A stretch of DNA of 8,285 bases from Anaerolineaceae bacterium. GTDB lineage: Bacteria; Chloroflexota; Anaerolineae; Anaerolineales; Anaerolineaceae. The notes beneath the pieces were generated by a model that worked only from the letters and a program-made list of their open reading frames with translations, was not told the origin of the DNA and searched no databases. The stretch lies in the NCBI GenBank assembly GCA_014860845.1, contig JACZIY010000815.1, positions 1 through 8,285 of the forward strand. Direction: 5' to 3'. Shown in pieces: positions 282-8,152 of the stretch. How positions within the stretch are numbered: position 1 is the first letter of the stretch; every line of letters begins with the position of its first letter. A program made the translations under genes and the position numbers.

Positions 282-1454
282 ATGCCCATTAATTTCCAGC
301 AAATCCGTTCAGCCATCCAGAAATTCGGTCAGGAAGCGCCTGCTCAGGCAAAATTACGGGAACAAAACCTGGAAACGGCACTTTCACTTCTCCGGCAATG
401 TAGCCAGGAAAGTGAACAATTACAGGAGAGTATTCAGCTGGCAATGATTGCCAATCCAGATTTACGTTGTGCTCTCCCAACCAGGGAACCTTTGGATTCC
501 TCTCACACAGCTACTCCTTTCACAGAACCCATCATCCTGCTGGCAGCGGACGGATCACAAATCATCCCCGATCAACACCTGGCCGTTCAATTTGGGGTCA
601 TCAATGTTGGCTTGATGCGTATGCAGACAGGTAGCACTCCGCGTGAAAGCATTGAAAGCGATCTGCTCTACGCACAGGATATTTTCAGCGAACAAGGTTA
701 TTTGGTCGGGGAAGAATTGATCGCCTTGCGACGGGATCATAAAGAACGCAGTCATCTACTGCAGGCAGCCTTGCAGGAAAACCAGACCGTCCTGACGCTG
801 ACCGATGGACCACTGGAACTGTTCCGCGAGGGACGAGAAACAGCAGAATATCAGAATCTACTCACAGACTATCTCAACATCCTGGCTGAAATGGCGCAGC
901 ATGCTGTTCTGACAGCCGGATATGTTGATAAACCGCGCAGTGACCTGCTCATTCGCACCCTGGAAATAACCATGTTGCCAGAAGATCGTCTCTCGGAAGC
1001 AGGACGTGTCCGGCAGTTACCAGGTATCACTGATGCGGATCTGTTCGGCCAGGTATTACAACCACAGCAGCGTTCTGCCATCTTCGGCTTGAATTCCAGC
1101 AGTGGCAAACGCTTCCATGGGCCATTGGCGATTCACTTTTTCTATCTCAATATCGGTCGTGAAAACAAACCGCAAATCGCCCGAGTGGAAATCCCCGCCT
1201 GGGTGCTCAGAAACCCGGAAAATATCGACCTCATCCATCATCACCTGCTGGATCAGTGCCAGATCATGGGCGTGAAAGCCTATCCATATATTCTGCACCG
1301 GGCACATGAGATCGCCCTGGTCAGTTATCAGGAGCGCCAGCATTTACTGGGATTGCTGCAGCAGACTTTACTCAATCAGGGATTAGAACCCGGGGATAAA
1401 TCCTCCAAACAGTATCATAAAGACCTAAGTGGAAAGACGAGGTATCGTAAATGA
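282..1454 (+). CDS. nurA: NurA-family DNA end-resection nuclease
   Basis: This is a 390-residue cytosolic protein of the NurA nuclease family, metal-dependent nucleases that work with the HerA translocase to resect DNA ends. The family pattern is visible. A first core strand carries Asp90 in AADGSQI. A second ends in LTDGPLE with Asp175. Then come GYVDKPRS (Asp216) and a C-terminal HRAHEIALVS segment (about 339-348) with the conserved late histidine, probably His342. An N-terminal helical region of about 75 residues rich in Gln and Glu precedes the core. The start is supported by AAGGGG five bases before the ATG and by the extended -10 at 242-250. The stop overlaps the next start as ATGA (1451-1454), so translation is probably coupled. 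The herA gene two places downstream confirms the family call. No frameshift or missing core motif is seen. Residue roles are inferred from archaeal NurA. The in vivo role here, housekeeping repair or defence, is not shown by the sequence. Confidence 0.9.
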   Translation: MPINFQQIRSAIQKFGQEAPAQAKLREQNLETALSLLRQCSQESEQLQESIQLAMIANPDLRCALPTREPLDSSHTATPFTEPIILLAADGSQIIPDQHLAVQFGVINVGLMRMQTGSTPRESIESDLLYAQDIFSEQGYLVGEELIALRRDHKERSHLLQAALQENQTVLTLTDGPLELFREGRETAEYQNLLTDYLNILAEMAQHAVLTAGYVDKPRSDLLIRTLEITMLPEDRLSEAGRVRQLPGITDADLFGQVLQPQQRSAIFGLNSSSGKRFHGPLAIHFFYLNIGRENKPQIARVEIPAWVLRNPENIDLIHHHLLDQCQIMGVKAYPYILHRAHEIALVSYQERQHLLGLLQQTLLNQGLEPGDKSSKQYHKDLSGKTRYRK

Positions 1455-2068
1455 ACACCAACCAGATTGGATTTCTGCTACGCGCCAGCACCAGCGATTG
1501 TATTGCAGGCTGCCGGGTGGCGTCTCTTGATTTACCACAGCTCGGTGGAATGGTGACCATACAACCATCCAGAGATTTACAGATCTTCGGTTTGATTTAT
1601 GACCTGCACATCGATGATGATGGGCTGGTGCGTCAACTGGTCACCACCGAACATATCAAACCAGAAGTCATCGCCGATAATCGCAACAATCGCACCGTCC
1701 CGGTGGAGATCAGCATTGTCTTCTGTGGCTATCAACAGCATGATGAGGTTTTTCATCTCCTGCCACCGCGTCCACCTTTGACACTGGATGAGGTCTATGT
1801 TTGTGATGTTCAACAACTGTGTACCTTTACTTCGGCGGCTCGCTTTGGTTATTTTCGACACATTCTCAGAGGGCAGGATTACCCGGTGGCGGAAATTCTG
1901 GCCAGCCATTTGAAACTGGCATCCCAGGCACATACCGCACAGCAGAACCCCAATTGGATCAATGCTGCCATACAGGAATTGATCGTGCTTTTACGGGATG
2001 ATTACGCCACCTTAATGAACGTTTTGGGTGCGCTGGCCGATGCAAAATTGACTCACGAGGAGGGCTGA
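1451..2068 (+). CDS. HAS-barrel protein without ATPase domain, between nurA and herA
   Basis: This 205-residue soluble protein does not match a named enzyme. Its N-terminal half looks like the HAS-barrel found at the N-terminus of HerA-type ATPases, and it can be aligned by eye with the HerA encoded just downstream. IGFLL (6-10) matches IGYVV. GGMVTIQPSRDLQIFGLIYDL (32-52, here split as GGMVTIQPS and IFGLIYDL) matches EGSFVVIEA and FYGLITDL. VPVEISIVFCGY (83-94) matches LPVHLSSLLHGQ. A Pro-rich segment (104-110, LPPRPPL) resembles the linker after HerA barrels. Residues from about 130 to 200 are predicted helical and end acidic. There is no Walker motif, membrane segment or obvious catalytic cluster. 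GAGG at 1439-1442 lies eight bases before the ATG, which overlaps the nurA stop by 4 nt. The herA gene starts one base after its stop. Inferred role: subunit or adaptor of the NurA-HerA machine. The HAS-barrel fold assignment is fairly secure; the function is not. Confidence 0.8.
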   Translation: MNTNQIGFLLRASTSDCIAGCRVASLDLPQLGGMVTIQPSRDLQIFGLIYDLHIDDDGLVRQLVTTEHIKPEVIADNRNNRTVPVEISIVFCGYQQHDEVFHLLPPRPPLTLDEVYVCDVQQLCTFTSAARFGYFRHILRGQDYPVAEILASHLKLASQAHTAQQNPNWINAAIQELIVLLRDDYATLMNVLGALADAKLTHEEG

Positions 2069-2069
2069 G

Positions 2070-3782
2070 ATGGCGATCAAACCTGGCATGAACATTGGTT
2101 ATGTGGTGGGTGGTGGGCTTAAAAATAATCTCAACATCCGGCTGACCGTTCCTTCCCATGAAGTGCAGGAAGGCAGCTTTGTGGTCATAGAAGCTGGCAA
2201 CGATAACTTTTACGGACTGATCACAGATCTGCAGCTCGGCAGCACCGATCCGCGTTTTGCTGATGAGCAGAGCGAAAACCGCCTGCCAGTTCACTTATCC
2301 AGCCTGCTGCACGGGCAGACGCTCTTCACCAATCTTGAGGTCATGCCCATGTTGATGCTTGATCGTGGACCTGATCCCGGTTCACCGGAATACCCTGCTT
2401 GGCGAGCACAAAATCCTGACGATGAAACCCGTGCCAAACCAGTCAAAACCATCCCCGCCCACCACGCCATTACCCGGGCTGCTCATGCCGGCGACGTGGC
2501 GCAGATCTTCGGAGATCCGGAGAAGAAGGGTAATTTTGTGGTGGGTACTACCCGCGAACAAAACCACCCGGTCGTTCTCAACCTGGAGAAATTTGTGCAG
2601 CGCTCCTCCGGAATCTTTGGTGCCACCGGTACCGGCAAATCTTTCCTTACTCGAATTATCCTTTCCGGAATGATCCACCATGACCTGGCATCCCTGCTGG
2701 TTTTCGACATGCACAACGAGTACGGTTACGACGATACGTCTTCGGATACCAACCAGAAAGTAGCCGGTTTGCGTACAAAATTCCCACTCAAGGTCAAAGT
2801 GGTCGGTCTGGGCGCTGGTTCTACCATCCGTGGCAAAAGTGCGGATTTCAATCTACAGCTGGCGGAGTCTGACATTGCACCCGAAGACATTCTTATGCTT
2901 TCCCGTGAATTAAATCTGCGCGAGACCACCGCTGCCACCCTGGATGCCCTGGTGCACGCCTTCGGGGAAAAACGCTGGTTTCATGAGTTCAAACAACTGA
3001 AAAATGGCGCTATGATCGAAAATGATGATGGCAAAAAAGTTCCTGCCCTGGACAGTGTAGCTTTTTGGGCAAATCAAAATGGAATGAACGCTATAGCCGC
3101 AGAAGCCCTGCATACCAAAATGAACCGCATATTCAATCTGCCTTACATCAGCCAGAATCCTCCCGGGCAACCCTTGCAGGACATCATCCACTACCTGGAA
3201 CAGGGCAAGCACATCATTCTCTCCTTTGGAGATTTCGAACGCGATCTGGACTATTTGTTGGTTACCAATCTGTTGACTAGAAAAATTCGCAAATCCTGGG
3301 AGGAAAAAACCAACACCTTCCGTGGTGGCAAAAACAGCCAGGCGCCGCGCCCGCTGGTGATCGTCGTTGAGGAAGCCCATAAACTTCTCAACCGAGAAAT
3401 GTCCGCCCAGACTACATTCAGCACCATCGCCCGGGAGATGCGCAAATACTATGTCACCCTATTGATCATCGACCAACGTCCCTCTCAGATCTATGATGAA
3501 GTCATGTCGCAACTGGGCACCCGCATCAGTGGCTGGCTGGGGGATGATGACGACATCTCCTCTGTTCTCTCCGGTCTGGCAGGTCGGGATGCCTTACGGG
3601 GCATGCTTTCCCGTTTGCAGCCCAAAGAGGAAGTGCTCATGCTGGGTTGGGGCATCCCCATGCCCATTCCCCTGCACTCACGGCGGTACGATCAGAAATT
3701 CTGGAATGAATTGCTCGGCAAGTCAGATGTCACAACCAAATCCACCGACGACCTGATCAAATCCCTGGGTTTTGATGCCTGA
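2070..3782 (+). CDS. herA: HerA-type hexameric DNA translocase (HAS-barrel plus DUF87 ATPase)
   Basis: This 570-residue HerA/FtsK-superfamily ATPase is expected to form a hexameric ring that pumps duplex DNA and drives the NurA nuclease. Residues 9-100 form the N-terminal HAS-barrel. Walker A is GATGTGKS (184-191). Walker B is VIVVEEAH (430-437), with the acidic pair Glu434-Glu435 in place of the more usual DE. A following IIDQRPSQI segment (466-474, Arg470) and SQLGTRISGWL are the HerA sensor and arginine-finger region. The C-terminus (about 525-570) carries LGWGIPMPIPLHSRRY, like the substrate-facing tail of HerA proteins. Length is within the usual 500-620 range. Start: GAGGAGGG at 2057-2064 lies inside the end of the upstream gene, five bases before the ATG. 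The one-base gap implies coupled expression with the HAS-barrel protein. No truncation is seen. FtsK itself is excluded by the lack of membrane and gamma domains and by the nurA neighbour. Confidence 0.93.
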   Translation: MAIKPGMNIGYVVGGGLKNNLNIRLTVPSHEVQEGSFVVIEAGNDNFYGLITDLQLGSTDPRFADEQSENRLPVHLSSLLHGQTLFTNLEVMPMLMLDRGPDPGSPEYPAWRAQNPDDETRAKPVKTIPAHHAITRAAHAGDVAQIFGDPEKKGNFVVGTTREQNHPVVLNLEKFVQRSSGIFGATGTGKSFLTRIILSGMIHHDLASLLVFDMHNEYGYDDTSSDTNQKVAGLRTKFPLKVKVVGLGAGSTIRGKSADFNLQLAESDIAPEDILMLSRELNLRETTAATLDALVHAFGEKRWFHEFKQLKNGAMIENDDGKKVPALDSVAFWANQNGMNAIAAEALHTKMNRIFNLPYISQNPPGQPLQDIIHYLEQGKHIILSFGDFERDLDYLLVTNLLTRKIRKSWEEKTNTFRGGKNSQAPRPLVIVVEEAHKLLNREMSAQTTFSTIAREMRKYYVTLLIIDQRPSQIYDEVMSQLGTRISGWLGDDDDISSVLSGLAGRDALRGMLSRLQPKEEVLMLGWGIPMPIPLHSRRYDQKFWNELLGKSDVTTKSTDDLIKSLGFDA

Positions 3783-3790
3783 TACCATTT

Positions 3791-3821
3791 CGTACGGGCG
3801 GGTTCAGAACCCGCCCGTACG
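3791..3821. repeat. Perfect 14-bp-stem palindrome after herA (REP-like, possible 3' end structure)
   Basis: CGTACGGGCGGGTT (3791-3804) is separated by the three-base loop CAG from its exact reverse complement (3808-3821). The stem begins nine bases after the herA stop. No T-run follows, so it is not a standard intrinsic terminator, though it could stabilise the mRNA 3' end. Its GC-rich form and intergenic site, next to a second palindromic element, suggest an interspersed REP-type repeat. Copy number in the genome cannot be seen from here. Confidence 0.75.
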
Positions 3822-3838: not shown

Positions 3839-3915
3839 GTAGGGGCAGCAGCTTGTCCCTGCCCTGGCTTGTCCCTGCCCCGTGGTTTGGGGTAAGGACG
3901 AGCCGTTACCCCTAC
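3839..3915. repeat. 77-bp intergenic element bounded by GTAGGGG and CCCCTAC
   Basis: The element opens with GTAGGGG (3839-3845) and closes with the exact reverse complement CCCCTAC (3909-3915). A second, inner inverted repeat, GGGGTAA (3889-3895) and TTACCCC (3906-3912), shares the right arm, so two alternative folds are possible. The centre contains two 16-nt tandem copies. It has no coding potential and no transposase. It looks like a small non-autonomous palindromic repeat of the sort common between genes in Anaerolineae. That family link is inference. Confidence 0.55.
3851..3882. repeat. Two 16-nt tandem copies inside the 77-bp element
   Basis: Copy 1 (3851-3866) is GCTTGTCCCTGCCCTG and copy 2 (3867-3882) is GCTTGTCCCTGCCCCG. 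They differ at one position and lie directly end to end. GGGCAG at 3843-3848 is complementary to the CTGCCC in either copy, so the left arm could pair with copy 1 or copy 2. This suggests the element grew by slippage or local duplication. Confidence 0.7.
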
Positions 3916-5503: not shown

Positions 5504-5950
5504 TTACCAGATATACCAGACGGTCAGCGCTACTGCCACACCAAGAATGATGCCCCCTACCACCTGTGCGGGTGTATGCCCCAATACCTCTTTTAGTTTT
5601 TCAATCTCAATCGGTTCTCCATGTAGAAATTCTTCAAACAATTGATTAATTTTCTGGGCATGGATGCCTGCCTGCCGGCGCACACCTGAGGCATCATAAA
5701 CCACAATCATGGTAATGGCAAATGCTATCGCAAAAATAGCCGAATCAAAGCCATAATTCAACCCTGTAGATAGGGTTACAGACACCATTAACGAGGAATG
5801 GGTACTCGGCATTCCGCCGCTGCTAAACCATAATCCCCAATTGATACGGCGGTTGAGTAAATATTCCATCGGTACTTTCAGAAACTGGCCAAAAAACCAG
5901 CTGATCAAACCGGCAAATAAAACCTGATTTCTTAGTAGCTCTTCACCCAT
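5504..5950 (-). CDS. Divergent PAP2 family (DUF212) integral membrane protein
   Basis: This 148-residue membrane protein belongs to the DUF212 / divergent PAP2 family, relatives of phosphatidic acid phosphatases. Its diagnostic blocks are all present: SGGMPSTHSS (44-53), YDASGVRRQAGIHAQ (85-99) and LKEVLGHTPAQVVGGIILG (in pieces, 119-137). PSTH stands where classical PAP2 enzymes have PSGH. Hydrophobic segments fall at about 8-24, 54-66, 68-86 and 128-147. The length is normal for the family. A phosphatase activity on a lipid or isoprenyl phosphate is plausible but unproven for this family. The start codon shares one base with the xseB stop (TAATG, 5952-5948) and has no strong Shine-Dalgarno, so translation is probably coupled to xseB. 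The gene is last in the xseA-xseB operon and convergent with the lipoprotein gene. I see no functional reason for the pairing with ExoVII. Confidence 0.9.
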   Translation of the reverse strand: MGEELLRNQVLFAGLISWFFGQFLKVPMEYLLNRRINWGLWFSSGGMPSTHSSLMVSVTLSTGLNYGFDSAIFAIAFAITMIVVYDASGVRRQAGIHAQKINQLFEEFLHGEPIEIEKLKEVLGHTPAQVVGGIILGVAVALTVWYIW

Positions 5951-6180
5951 TAAGCATCTTGCTCATCTTCAGGGAGCTGATTCTCCAATCGTAATTTTTG
6001 TACCCGCAATTCGGCTGACTCTAATAAAGCTGCGCAACGAGTAGACAGGGCTTGACCGCGTTCGTATAAAGTTAATGACTCATCCAGATTAAGTGTCTCC
6101 GATTCCAACCGGTTAACGATCTGTTCCAATTCAGCAAATGCCTGTTCATAACTTAATTCATCTACCGAAGTTCTTTCCAT
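5950..6180 (-). CDS. xseB: Exodeoxyribonuclease VII small subunit
   Basis: This 76-residue cytosolic protein is the small, mostly helical subunit of exonuclease VII, which binds the coiled-coil region of XseA in several copies and is needed for activity. The family pattern is clear: LSYEQAFAELEQIVNRLES (9-27), then LNLDESLTLYERGQAL (30-45), then CAALLESAELRVQKL (49-63) and an acidic tail. GGAG (6190-6187) lies six bases before the ATG. The gene lies 56 nt after xseA, in a spacer where no promoter or terminator is evident, so it is probably cotranscribed. Its TAA overlaps the DUF212 start by one base. Length is typical (70-85 residues). Confidence 0.95.
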   Translation of the reverse strand: MERTSVDELSYEQAFAELEQIVNRLESETLNLDESLTLYERGQALSTRCAALLESAELRVQKLRLENQLPEDEQDA

Positions 6181-6236
6181 TATTTACTCCATTCACTCAA
6201 GTTAATCCTGGATGGCAGGCTGATAATTTTAACCTA

Positions 6237-7490
6237 TTATTGATGATCCTGATTAATTCGCTTTACTTCAGATTCAAGGATGCCATCTTTTAATCGTACC
6301 GTTACTTGGTTTCCTACCCGCACGCCAGTCACAGAAGTTACAATTTTTCCGTTTTCATCGCTTACAACAGCATACCCACGTTGCAATACCTGCCATGGAT
6401 TTAAAGCTTTCAAACGGGCGTCCAAACCTCCAAGCCGGGATTGTGACAATGATATTCGGTGATCAAATACCCGTTCCATGCGCACCAGCACCTCATCCAG
6501 TCGCTGTTGGTGATTGCGAATGCGGTTGATGGGGGAGAGAAAATTCAGCTGAGATTGCACGGATGAAAGGTCCTGGTGATATTGTCTGGTTTTCCTGTCA
6601 AACACGTCGTCCAATTTAGCTTGTAAACCAGCCAGATCAACCAATAAATCAGCTTTGTTGGGTGTCACCAATACCGCTGCGCCGGTGGGGGTGGGTGCCC
6701 GTAAATCAGCCACATAATCCGAGAGGGTGGTATCAGTCTCATGCCCAATGCCGGTCACCACCGGAATTCGGGATACTGCAATCGCTCGCACCACGCGTTC
6801 ATCATTGAAGGCCCACAGGTCTTCCATGGAACCCCCGCCGCGGGCTACGATGATGACATCTATATCCAACAGCTGATTGAGGTCGTGGATGGCCTGCACG
6901 ATTTTCGGTGGGGCATCAACTCCCTGCACCATCGTAGGAGCCAGGATTACTTCTACCAAAGGGAAGCGTCCTTTTAAAGTATTGAGCATATCCTGTAACG
7001 CCGCACCAGAAGGTGAGGTAACAATCCCGATCTTCTTCGGGAAAGTGGGAATTTCGCGTTTCCGCTCCTCATCAAACAATCCTTCCTCTTCCAATAAGGC
7101 TTTCAGGCGCATGAATTCCTGAAACAACATCCCTTCGCCAGCCATTCGCACCGTATCCACATATAGTTGGTACTGTCCACCAGCTTCGTAGACACTCACG
7201 GAGCCATGCACTTCCACGGCCATGCCTGTTTCCAGGCTTGTTCGCAAACGCATGGCATTTTGCTTCCAGATCACACATTTCAGCGTTGCAGAACTGTCCT
7301 TCAGATTGAAATAAATGTGTCCGGAACTGGGTTTTGAGAGCGTGGAAATCTCACCAGACACCCAAACATCCCGTAAAATATCATCACTTTCCAACAAGGC
7401 GCGCAAGTACTGTGTCATGCCACTGACGGATAATACTCTGGGTCCAAATAAACTCATTTGCTCTGCCATCGAATTAAGAATACCGAACAT
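6237..7490 (-). CDS. xseA: Exodeoxyribonuclease VII large subunit
   Basis: This is the catalytic subunit of ExoVII, which degrades single-stranded DNA from both ends to oligonucleotides and acts in repair. With the ATG at 7490 it has 417 residues. The N-terminal OB-fold (about 18-118) contains VWVSGEISTLSKPSSGHIYF-type residues. The nuclease domain (about 120-280) carries GIVTSPSGAALQD, VARGGGSMEDLWAFNDERV and GIGHETDTTLSDYVADLRA. Asp167, Arg217, His250 and Asp253 line up with E. coli Asp155, Arg205, His238 and Asp241. A coiled-coil stretch (about 280-360) and a C-terminal segment beginning NPWQVLQRGYAVV complete the family layout. Start choice: the ATG at 7490 has AGGA (7498-7495) four bases upstream. 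An in-frame TTG at 7505 would add five residues but has only a distant AGG. The gene is divergent from the HIT gene, leads into xseB, and has no strong promoter visible upstream. Confidence 0.94.
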   Translation of the reverse strand: MFGILNSMAEQMSLFGPRVLSVSGMTQYLRALLESDDILRDVWVSGEISTLSKPSSGHIYFNLKDSSATLKCVIWKQNAMRLRTSLETGMAVEVHGSVSVYEAGGQYQLYVDTVRMAGEGMLFQEFMRLKALLEEEGLFDEERKREIPTFPKKIGIVTSPSGAALQDMLNTLKGRFPLVEVILAPTMVQGVDAPPKIVQAIHDLNQLLDIDVIIVARGGGSMEDLWAFNDERVVRAIAVSRIPVVTGIGHETDTTLSDYVADLRAPTPTGAAVLVTPNKADLLVDLAGLQAKLDDVFDRKTRQYHQDLSSVQSQLNFLSPINRIRNHQQRLDEVLVRMERVFDHRISLSQSRLGGLDARLKALNPWQVLQRGYAVVSDENGKIVTSVTGVRVGNQVTVRLKDGILESEVKRINQDHQ

Positions 7491-7597
7491 GTTGTCCTGT
7501 GTCAATCAAAAATCATGCCTGCCTGTCATATAAATTTCGATGAACTTTTGTGTGACCGAATGATTTTTTAATTTATTCCATAAGCTCATTAATTTTC

Positions 7598-7634: not shown

Positions 7635-8114
7635 ATGGATCATCTTTGGTCTCCATGGCGTATGCATTACATCAATAATAAAGGTGAAGAACCACAATGT
7701 GTGTTCTGTTATGCCGTAGAACAAACACAGGATGCGGAATATCTGATTTTGTTTCGTGGTATACACGGTTTTGTGATGCTCAACCGCTTCCCCTACACCA
7801 GCGGACACCTGATGGTACTGCCCTACGAACATCAGTCATCCTACGAGGACCTGACCGCTGAAACCCGCGCTGAGATGATGGAGTTGATCAATACAGCCAC
7901 ACAAGTATTGCGGAAGGTATACAACCCGAACGCTTTCAACCTGGGTGCCAATATTGGTGAGGACGCTGGCGCAGGGATTGCTCCCCATTTTCATTTTCAC
8001 ATTGTGCCACGCTGGCGGGGGGATAGCAATTTTATGTCGGTAACTTCCGACACTCGTGTCCTCCCTGAAGATTTGCAGGTCAGTTACCAGCGTTTGAAAG
8101 AAGCCTGGGGTTAG
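7635..8114 (+). CDS. HIT-family nucleotide hydrolase or Ap4A phosphorylase-like protein
   Basis: This 159-residue cytosolic histidine-triad protein has the signature H-phi-H-phi-H (HFHFHIV, 118-124), in which the middle His120 is the expected nucleophile. Upstream are NLGANIGEDAGAGIAPH (102-118), which binds the nucleotide phosphates, and SGHLMVLPYEH (56-66). Cys22 and Cys25 in CVFC, probably with distant histidines, form the zinc site of this HIT branch. The N-terminus MDHLWSPWRMHYI is characteristic of the subfamily that includes mycobacterial Ap4A phosphorylase Rv2613c, so cleavage of diadenosine polyphosphates is likely; a general nucleotide phosphoramidase is possible. AGG (7626-7628) lies six bases before the ATG. 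An upstream ATG at 7621 is out of frame. The gene stands alone, divergent from xseA, and its TAG stop (8112-8114) overlaps a G-rich tract. Confidence 0.9.
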   Translation: MDHLWSPWRMHYINNKGEEPQCVFCYAVEQTQDAEYLILFRGIHGFVMLNRFPYTSGHLMVLPYEHQSSYEDLTAETRAEMMELINTATQVLRKVYNPNAFNLGANIGEDAGAGIAPHFHFHIVPRWRGDSNFMSVTSDTRVLPEDLQVSYQRLKEAWG

Positions 8115-8138
8115 GGGTTAGGGTTTGGGGGTTAGGGG
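8107..8138 (+). repeat. Telomere-like G-rich tract with five G-runs, overlapping the HIT stop codon
   Basis: G-runs of 4, 4, 3, 5 and 4 (starting at 8107, 8114, 8121, 8127 and 8135) are separated by three-base TTA or TTT spacers. This is a short degenerate GGGGTTA array fitting the usual G-quadruplex pattern on the coding strand. The first run encodes the last Trp-Gly of the HIT protein, and the TAG stop lies between runs one and two. It may affect transcript 3' ends or replication; that is inference. Confidence 0.75.
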
Positions 8139-8152
8139 TTTGTTGTGTCGTC

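Follow-up and report, generated by a model that had tools for sequence, protein, structure and literature searches.

The window analysed here, the whole 8,285-nt stretch of contig JACZIY010000815.1 from an Anaerolineaceae bacterium (assembly GCA_014860845.1), carries between nurA and herA a gene for a free-standing HAS-barrel protein of 205 residues (hereafter X; 1451–2068, plus strand), identified from its open reading frame (ORF), an AlphaFold2 (AF2) model, structure searches and Pfam matches in its relatives. Work on HerA–NurA, a DNA-end-processing machine made of a ring motor (HerA) and a nuclease that cuts DNA ends (NurA), has since about 2004 treated it as having two components. The association of X with NurA–HerA is well supported, and we place first, at slightly under even odds, the reading that X is a motorless third subunit of the complex, an adaptor at the point where NurA docks on the HAS barrels; that X contacts NurA or HerA, its place in the complex and its role as an adaptor are what we infer.

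The neighbours of X are, by their domain matches, ordinary NurA and HerA proteins, with the same known domains as the NurA–HerA systems of Thermococcus, Sulfolobus and Deinococcus. The nuclease gene nurA (282–1454, plus strand; 390 residues) matches PF09376 (E 1.6e-20), and herA (2070–3782, plus strand) encodes a DNA translocase of 570 residues with a DUF87 match (PF01935, 1.2e-24), a Walker A motif, GATGTGKS, at residue 184 and a HAS-barrel domain at residues 9–69 (2094–2276, plus strand; PF09378, 2.1e-7). nurA and X overlap by 4 nt (ATGA, 1451–1454), a single nucleotide parts the X stop codon (TGA, 2066–2068) from the herA ATG at 2070, and a ribosome-binding-site-like GAGGAGGG for herA (2057–2064, plus strand) lies inside the 3' end of X, five bases before that ATG. 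The coordinates, length, overlap, gap and neighbours given for X in the initial annotation all agree with the ORF and Pfam data.

The AF2 model of X (predicted local distance difference test, pLDDT, 85.6; predicted template modelling score, pTM, 0.81) has seven strands, two of them short, which form a barrel and are followed by helices. The barrel part (residues 1–117; 1451–1801) comprises strands at residues 5–12, 16–22, 34–40, 43–54, 84–96, 99–101 and 114–117. Between the fourth and fifth of these, the β4–β5 segment (residues 55–83; 1613–1699), by strand order the probable counterpart of HerA helix α1 and its preceding loop, is predicted to contain helices at residues 59–65 and 71–80, of low pLDDT and loosely placed. 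In structure searches with the model (Foldseek, VIA), all 50 listed matches in the Protein Data Bank (PDB) were HerA or HerA-like entries, and HerA HAS barrels headed both lists among the matches listed. By predicted structure, the barrel fold is thus of the HerA/F1-ATPase type, the N-terminal barrel of F1-ATPase subunits being another close known one. The initial annotation had proposed a free-standing HAS-barrel relative of the HerA N-terminus and made structure prediction the test of it, and the predicted barrel and HerA-topped matches bear it out. The C-terminal part (residues 118–205; 1802–2065), at the position of the HerA motor, had been described as helical, and five helices are indeed predicted there; modelled on its own it reaches a pLDDT of 90.8, with no significant match among PDB structures. 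No DUF87 match and no Walker A motif were found in X, as expected from the earlier statement that it lacks Walker motifs, Walker B not having been scanned separately.

At the sequence level, X had no match in Pfam (none at E ≤ 1), NCBIfam or PADLOC, and BLASTP of X against HerA returned nothing significant. The by-eye likeness to the HerA N-terminus nonetheless exceeds chance, local alignment scoring 51 against 27.2 ± 4.4 for shuffled sequences, with 1 of 1000 shuffles as high. PF09378 matches 30 of 59 X family members at E ≤ 0.1 (best 3.9e-10; window X unmatched), and among seven members scanned singly one exceeds the curated cut-off (L040, 1.7e-7), another falls short of it (L048, 0.0045) and five are unmatched. 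Moreover, a low-threshold profile alignment over the whole HerA N-terminus passes the barrel and reaches a 'P.PP..V...' segment, which in X corresponds to residues 102–112 (HLLPPRPPLTL; 1754–1786), strongly conserved and matching the segment after the HerA barrel. X therefore appears, on sequence and model together, to be related to the HerA N-terminal region, barrel plus following element, with a small helical domain in the place of the RecA motor. Like the HAS-barrel domain of HerA, X has the predicted fold, the order of elements through 'P.PP..V...' and a gene beside nurA; unlike it, X stands on a separate chain that ends in helices and shows neither a motor match nor Walker A.

Relatives of X in the protein collection number 5750 at E ≤ 0.001, two contigs labelled HGW-Chloroflexi-3 and -2 encode X proteins 95% and 93% identical to that of the window, and length is similar despite great divergence of the sequences. 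Nine of the 11 residues at 102–112 are invariant in 29 relatives, with 2.9 expected (54 invariant positions in X in all); among X members P105 is invariant, P106 is present in 58 of 59 and P108 in 57 of 59. The β4–β5 segment holds 11 of the 54 invariant positions among the 29 closer relatives (7.6 expected), D56, D57 and R61 being conserved residues within it, and the helical tail also contains conserved residues.

We surveyed 301 Chloroflexota genomes with profiles at E ≤ 1e-3 for NurA and X, E ≤ 1e-40 for the HerA type found with X and E ≤ 1e-60 for that found with a second family, X', described below. X was detected in 101 genomes by profile A1 and in 119 by the broader profile A2, the latter falling to 116 because three matches (G035, G037 and G079) were moved to X', whose own profile A7 scored them far better. 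Conversely, six of the 64 A7 matches (E 1.3e-5 to 8.8e-4) were removed, being X loci of the same genomes, to leave 58. NurA was found in 187 genomes, window-type HerA in 118 and X'-type HerA in 59. X or X' occurs in 173 genomes, comprising 170 of the 187 that bear NurA and 3 of the 114 that do not. X-type HerA accompanies X in 114 of 116 genomes and X'-type HerA accompanies X' in 56 of 58, so that 169 genomes have X or X' together with HerA, types matched, in no genome was a crossed pair the sole pair, and the matching extends to genomes in which the genes are unlinked; HerA lacked its own partner in 4 of 118 cases (X type) and 3 of 59 (X' type). One genome, G046, matches both systems, with X (in two pieces) and its HerA as well as X' and its HerA. 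X is single-locus per genome; of the 119 genomes, 4 show an internal stop and 3 a match split into pieces. NurA occurs with neither X nor X' in 17 of 187 genomes, 12 of which (G005, G008, G094, G166, G175, G199, G214, G238, G252, G253, G254 and G296) also lack either HerA type and possibly reflect another use of NurA, or incomplete genomes. As a separate observation, the NurA model matches the Haloferax volcanii control, contrary to the available text of PMC7776575, by which H. volcanii has no NurA.

Where X and its HerA occur together (114 genomes), the start of herA is at most 150 nt downstream of X in 58 genomes, further off but inside 3 kb in 16, and elsewhere in 40. In this last group herA is on another contig in 30, possibly through assembly breaks in drafts, and on the same contig in 10, at least 250 kb away in eight of these; in 32 of the 40, X has nurA no more than 1 kb upstream, and in one more (G152) the distance is 4.8 kb. 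For the 40 loci fetched with long flanks, several of them cut by contig ends, nurA is at most 200 nt upstream of X in 24 and further in 10, and herA at most 200 nt downstream in 27 and further in three. X thus mostly stays with one partner or the other and is retained even when near neither, a pattern expected of a part that works with both, although no proof of contact. X' in turn adjoins its herA in 49 of 58 genomes, the best NurA match being far away or on another contig in 27 of those 49, and stands beside nurA with herA elsewhere in three (NurA location typed in 51 of the 58, by best match only). The initial annotation had asked for a survey of relatives, and there the gene is kept with nurA and herA; its suggestion that the tight spacing implies fixed stoichiometry does not hold, since spacing among relatives runs from overlaps up to ~1.9 kb, the 3 kb downstream of X contain no herA in 40 of 114 genomes, and the known NurA:HerA ratio is 2:6 in the available text of PMC9960219 and PMC12977600. 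What stands of its interpretation is therefore a barrel relative kept with nurA–herA.

X' came to light in NurA-positive genomes without X: nine of the 18 opened have a ~200-residue, weakly X-like gene after nurA, and the weak A2 matches in G035 and G079 are this same gene. Alignment of the X' and X sets indicates homology (hhalign E 7e-16, probability 98.6%, 156 columns). PF26500 was present in all 120 listed relatives of haloarchaeal X' and in the 46 closest X' relatives listed by another search; named sources among the matches listed include Natronobacterium, Haladaptatus, Halopiger, Halohasta and Halobacterium, and as a haloarchaeal PF26500 member is named DUF8166 in UniRef, the two are apparently the same. 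In precomputed Pfam annotation, PF26500 is absent from the 120 closest relatives listed for the window X, which makes X a sister family of X'; X and PF26500 proteins nevertheless appear, from their alignment, to share ancestry. Because X relatives extend across Chloroflexota and X' into some haloarchaea, NurA–HerA in these lineages probably has a third part.

The genomic setting of X' resembles the archaeal mre11–rad50–nurA–herA operon. Three haloarchaeal plasmids (Halobaculum marinum NZ_CP119991, Natrinema zhouii NZ_CP084885 and archaeon DL31 CP002989) carry, in succession, genes for a metallophosphoesterase, an SMC ATPase, NurA, X' and a DUF87/ATP-binding protein, the first two genes in Halobaculum being Mre11-like and Rad50-like by NCBIfam matches below curated cut-offs; Halorussus salilacus has X' and the ATP-binding protein at the end of the record. 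Six of eleven Chloroflexota loci with X' near nurA (L102–L107) were extended upstream, and all six contain an Mre11-like gene (NCBIfam, 7.5e-26 to 5.5e-35, below cut-offs), with a long ORF between it and nurA that is Rad50-like in the two scanned; one other gene parts X' from herA in three of the six (so read in L095). Gene content and order make this look like an archaeal-type operon in bacteria. The same order is thus shared with the archaeal operon, from which the X' clusters differ in the extra gene between nurA and herA and the window in having no Mre11 or Rad50 gene. On the Halorussus plasmid, a DES beta-lactamase fragment call (L101, 2710–2871) overlapping the end of herA is probably spurious.

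How X could act as an adaptor is suggested by two described interfaces. In D. radiodurans, the HAS barrels of HerA use the acidic residues D78, E80 and D81 to hold NurA (PMC9960219, available text), and in T. kodakarensis NurA2–HerA6 the HAS α1 helices and preceding loops touch NurA (PMC12977600, available text). X would occupy the HAS-barrel face of the HerA ring, on which the two-fold NurA dimer docks, with the X barrel presenting the same kind of surface as the one by which HerA holds NurA and the helical tail of X gripping the other partner, so that X would bridge NurA and HerA or set their coupling. Among the three roles raised in the initial annotation, a ring cap, a swapped-in regulatory subunit and an adaptor, the last is favoured because X retains a counterpart of the NurA-touching loop of HerA, although conservation of this loop is modest.

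Several points weigh against this adaptor role. The β4–β5 segment is among the more variable in the 59 members (mean entropy 2.19, segments ranging from 1.55 to 2.22), and the net charge of this stretch, the presumed site of docking, is acidic in all 24 HerA proteins tested but in only 39 of the 59 X proteins (10 neutral, 10 basic). HerA has a barrel of its own, and X is therefore unneeded for docking in the known two-part complexes. The signal between X and HerA is moderate, hhalign giving E 3.4e-4 at a probability of only 38% for HerA, and E 5.7e-5 at only 66% for its N-terminus alone. For X', PF09378 was matched in none of 10 proteins scanned at E ≤ 1, there is no signal against its own HerA profile (E 0.38) and a weak one against the window-type profile (E 0.0073), so that X' would be a barrel by its homology to X. 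X lies near neither partner in seven of the 40 herA-unlinked genomes (four checked by reading the region, two from previously fetched loci; G144 is without any NurA match). Lastly, the 301 genomes are related to each other, many being drafts or incomplete, and the two HerA profiles derive from loci adjoining X or X'.

Two alternatives rank behind the adaptor. In the first, X would be a ring subunit or loader, its barrels lying between the HAS barrels of HerA or on top of them; it could stand in as a motorless substitute protomer, or serve as a washer that opens the HerA ring, or sets the ring size, so that loading on DNA ends can occur. Matched X and HerA types with no crossed pairs, retention of the barrel and the segment after it, the adjacency of X' and its herA in 49 of 58 genomes, and the heptamer–hexamer switch of archaeal HerA (PMC5715905, available text) are consistent with this, whereas X lacks the RecA domain in which the inter-protomer ATP site lies (PMC9960219, available text) and in 32 of 114 genomes remains beside nurA while herA is at another place; we consider this reading rather unlikely. 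Slightly lower in our ranking, and also unlikely, is that the X barrel binds HerA or NurA as a regulator or recruiter, its tail attracting single-stranded DNA-binding protein (SSB), RecJ or Mre11–Rad50, or X blocking docking until a DNA end is found. The conserved residues of a tail without a relative found among solved structures, and the Mre11–Rad50–NurA–X'–HerA clusters, would suit such a role, yet neither Mre11 nor Rad50 is encoded in the window, and the almost one-to-one retention with HerA type is more suggestive of a structural component than of an optional regulator. That X is a functionless, decayed duplicate of the HerA N-terminus carried in the operon, as its resemblance and missing motor might suggest, is very improbable given internal stops in just 4 and fragmented matches in 3 of 119 genomes, a length kept across great divergence in 5750 relatives, and a single locus per genome that is retained when unlinked.

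In the searched open-licence literature, seen in part, we found no description of a third NurA–HerA component, an early (2004) mention of stand-alone HAS barrels being possible; NurA2–HerA6 is described without a third protein in the available text of PMC9960219, PMC12977600 and PMC5715905, the genomes concerned not having been searched for X. The chances seem to us evenly balanced that NurA–HerA is natively three-part over much of its distribution, with a HerA-like barrel protein that lacks the motor (X, or DUF8166 in haloarchaea) as an obligate subunit adapting a two-fold nuclease to a six-fold motor, and that this subunit was overlooked because the Sulfolobus, Thermococcus and Deinococcus systems were described as two-part. 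With the third component in 170 of 187 NurA-bearing Chloroflexota genomes and in the haloarchaeal cluster, reconstitutions from two parts may be incomplete for these lineages. X also makes it possible to test how a dimer and a hexamer are fitted together, and DUF8166, a domain of unknown function, gains a likely context, in a system whose role is still argued, PMC12977600 doubting in its available text that HerA–NurA makes the 3'-end resection.

Beyond herA, the window contains a perfect inverted repeat (3791–3821; 15 nt, 1-nt loop) directly 3' of the gene and then a doubled GCTTGTCCCTGCCC (3851–3880); this may represent a terminator or a small repeat element. About 2 kb past herA, genes for the small and large subunits of exonuclease VII lie on the minus strand (5950–7505), flanked by a DUF212 gene (5504–5950) and a HIT-domain gene (7635–8114), within the last codons of which a doubled GGGGTTAGGGGTT (8107–8140) begins.
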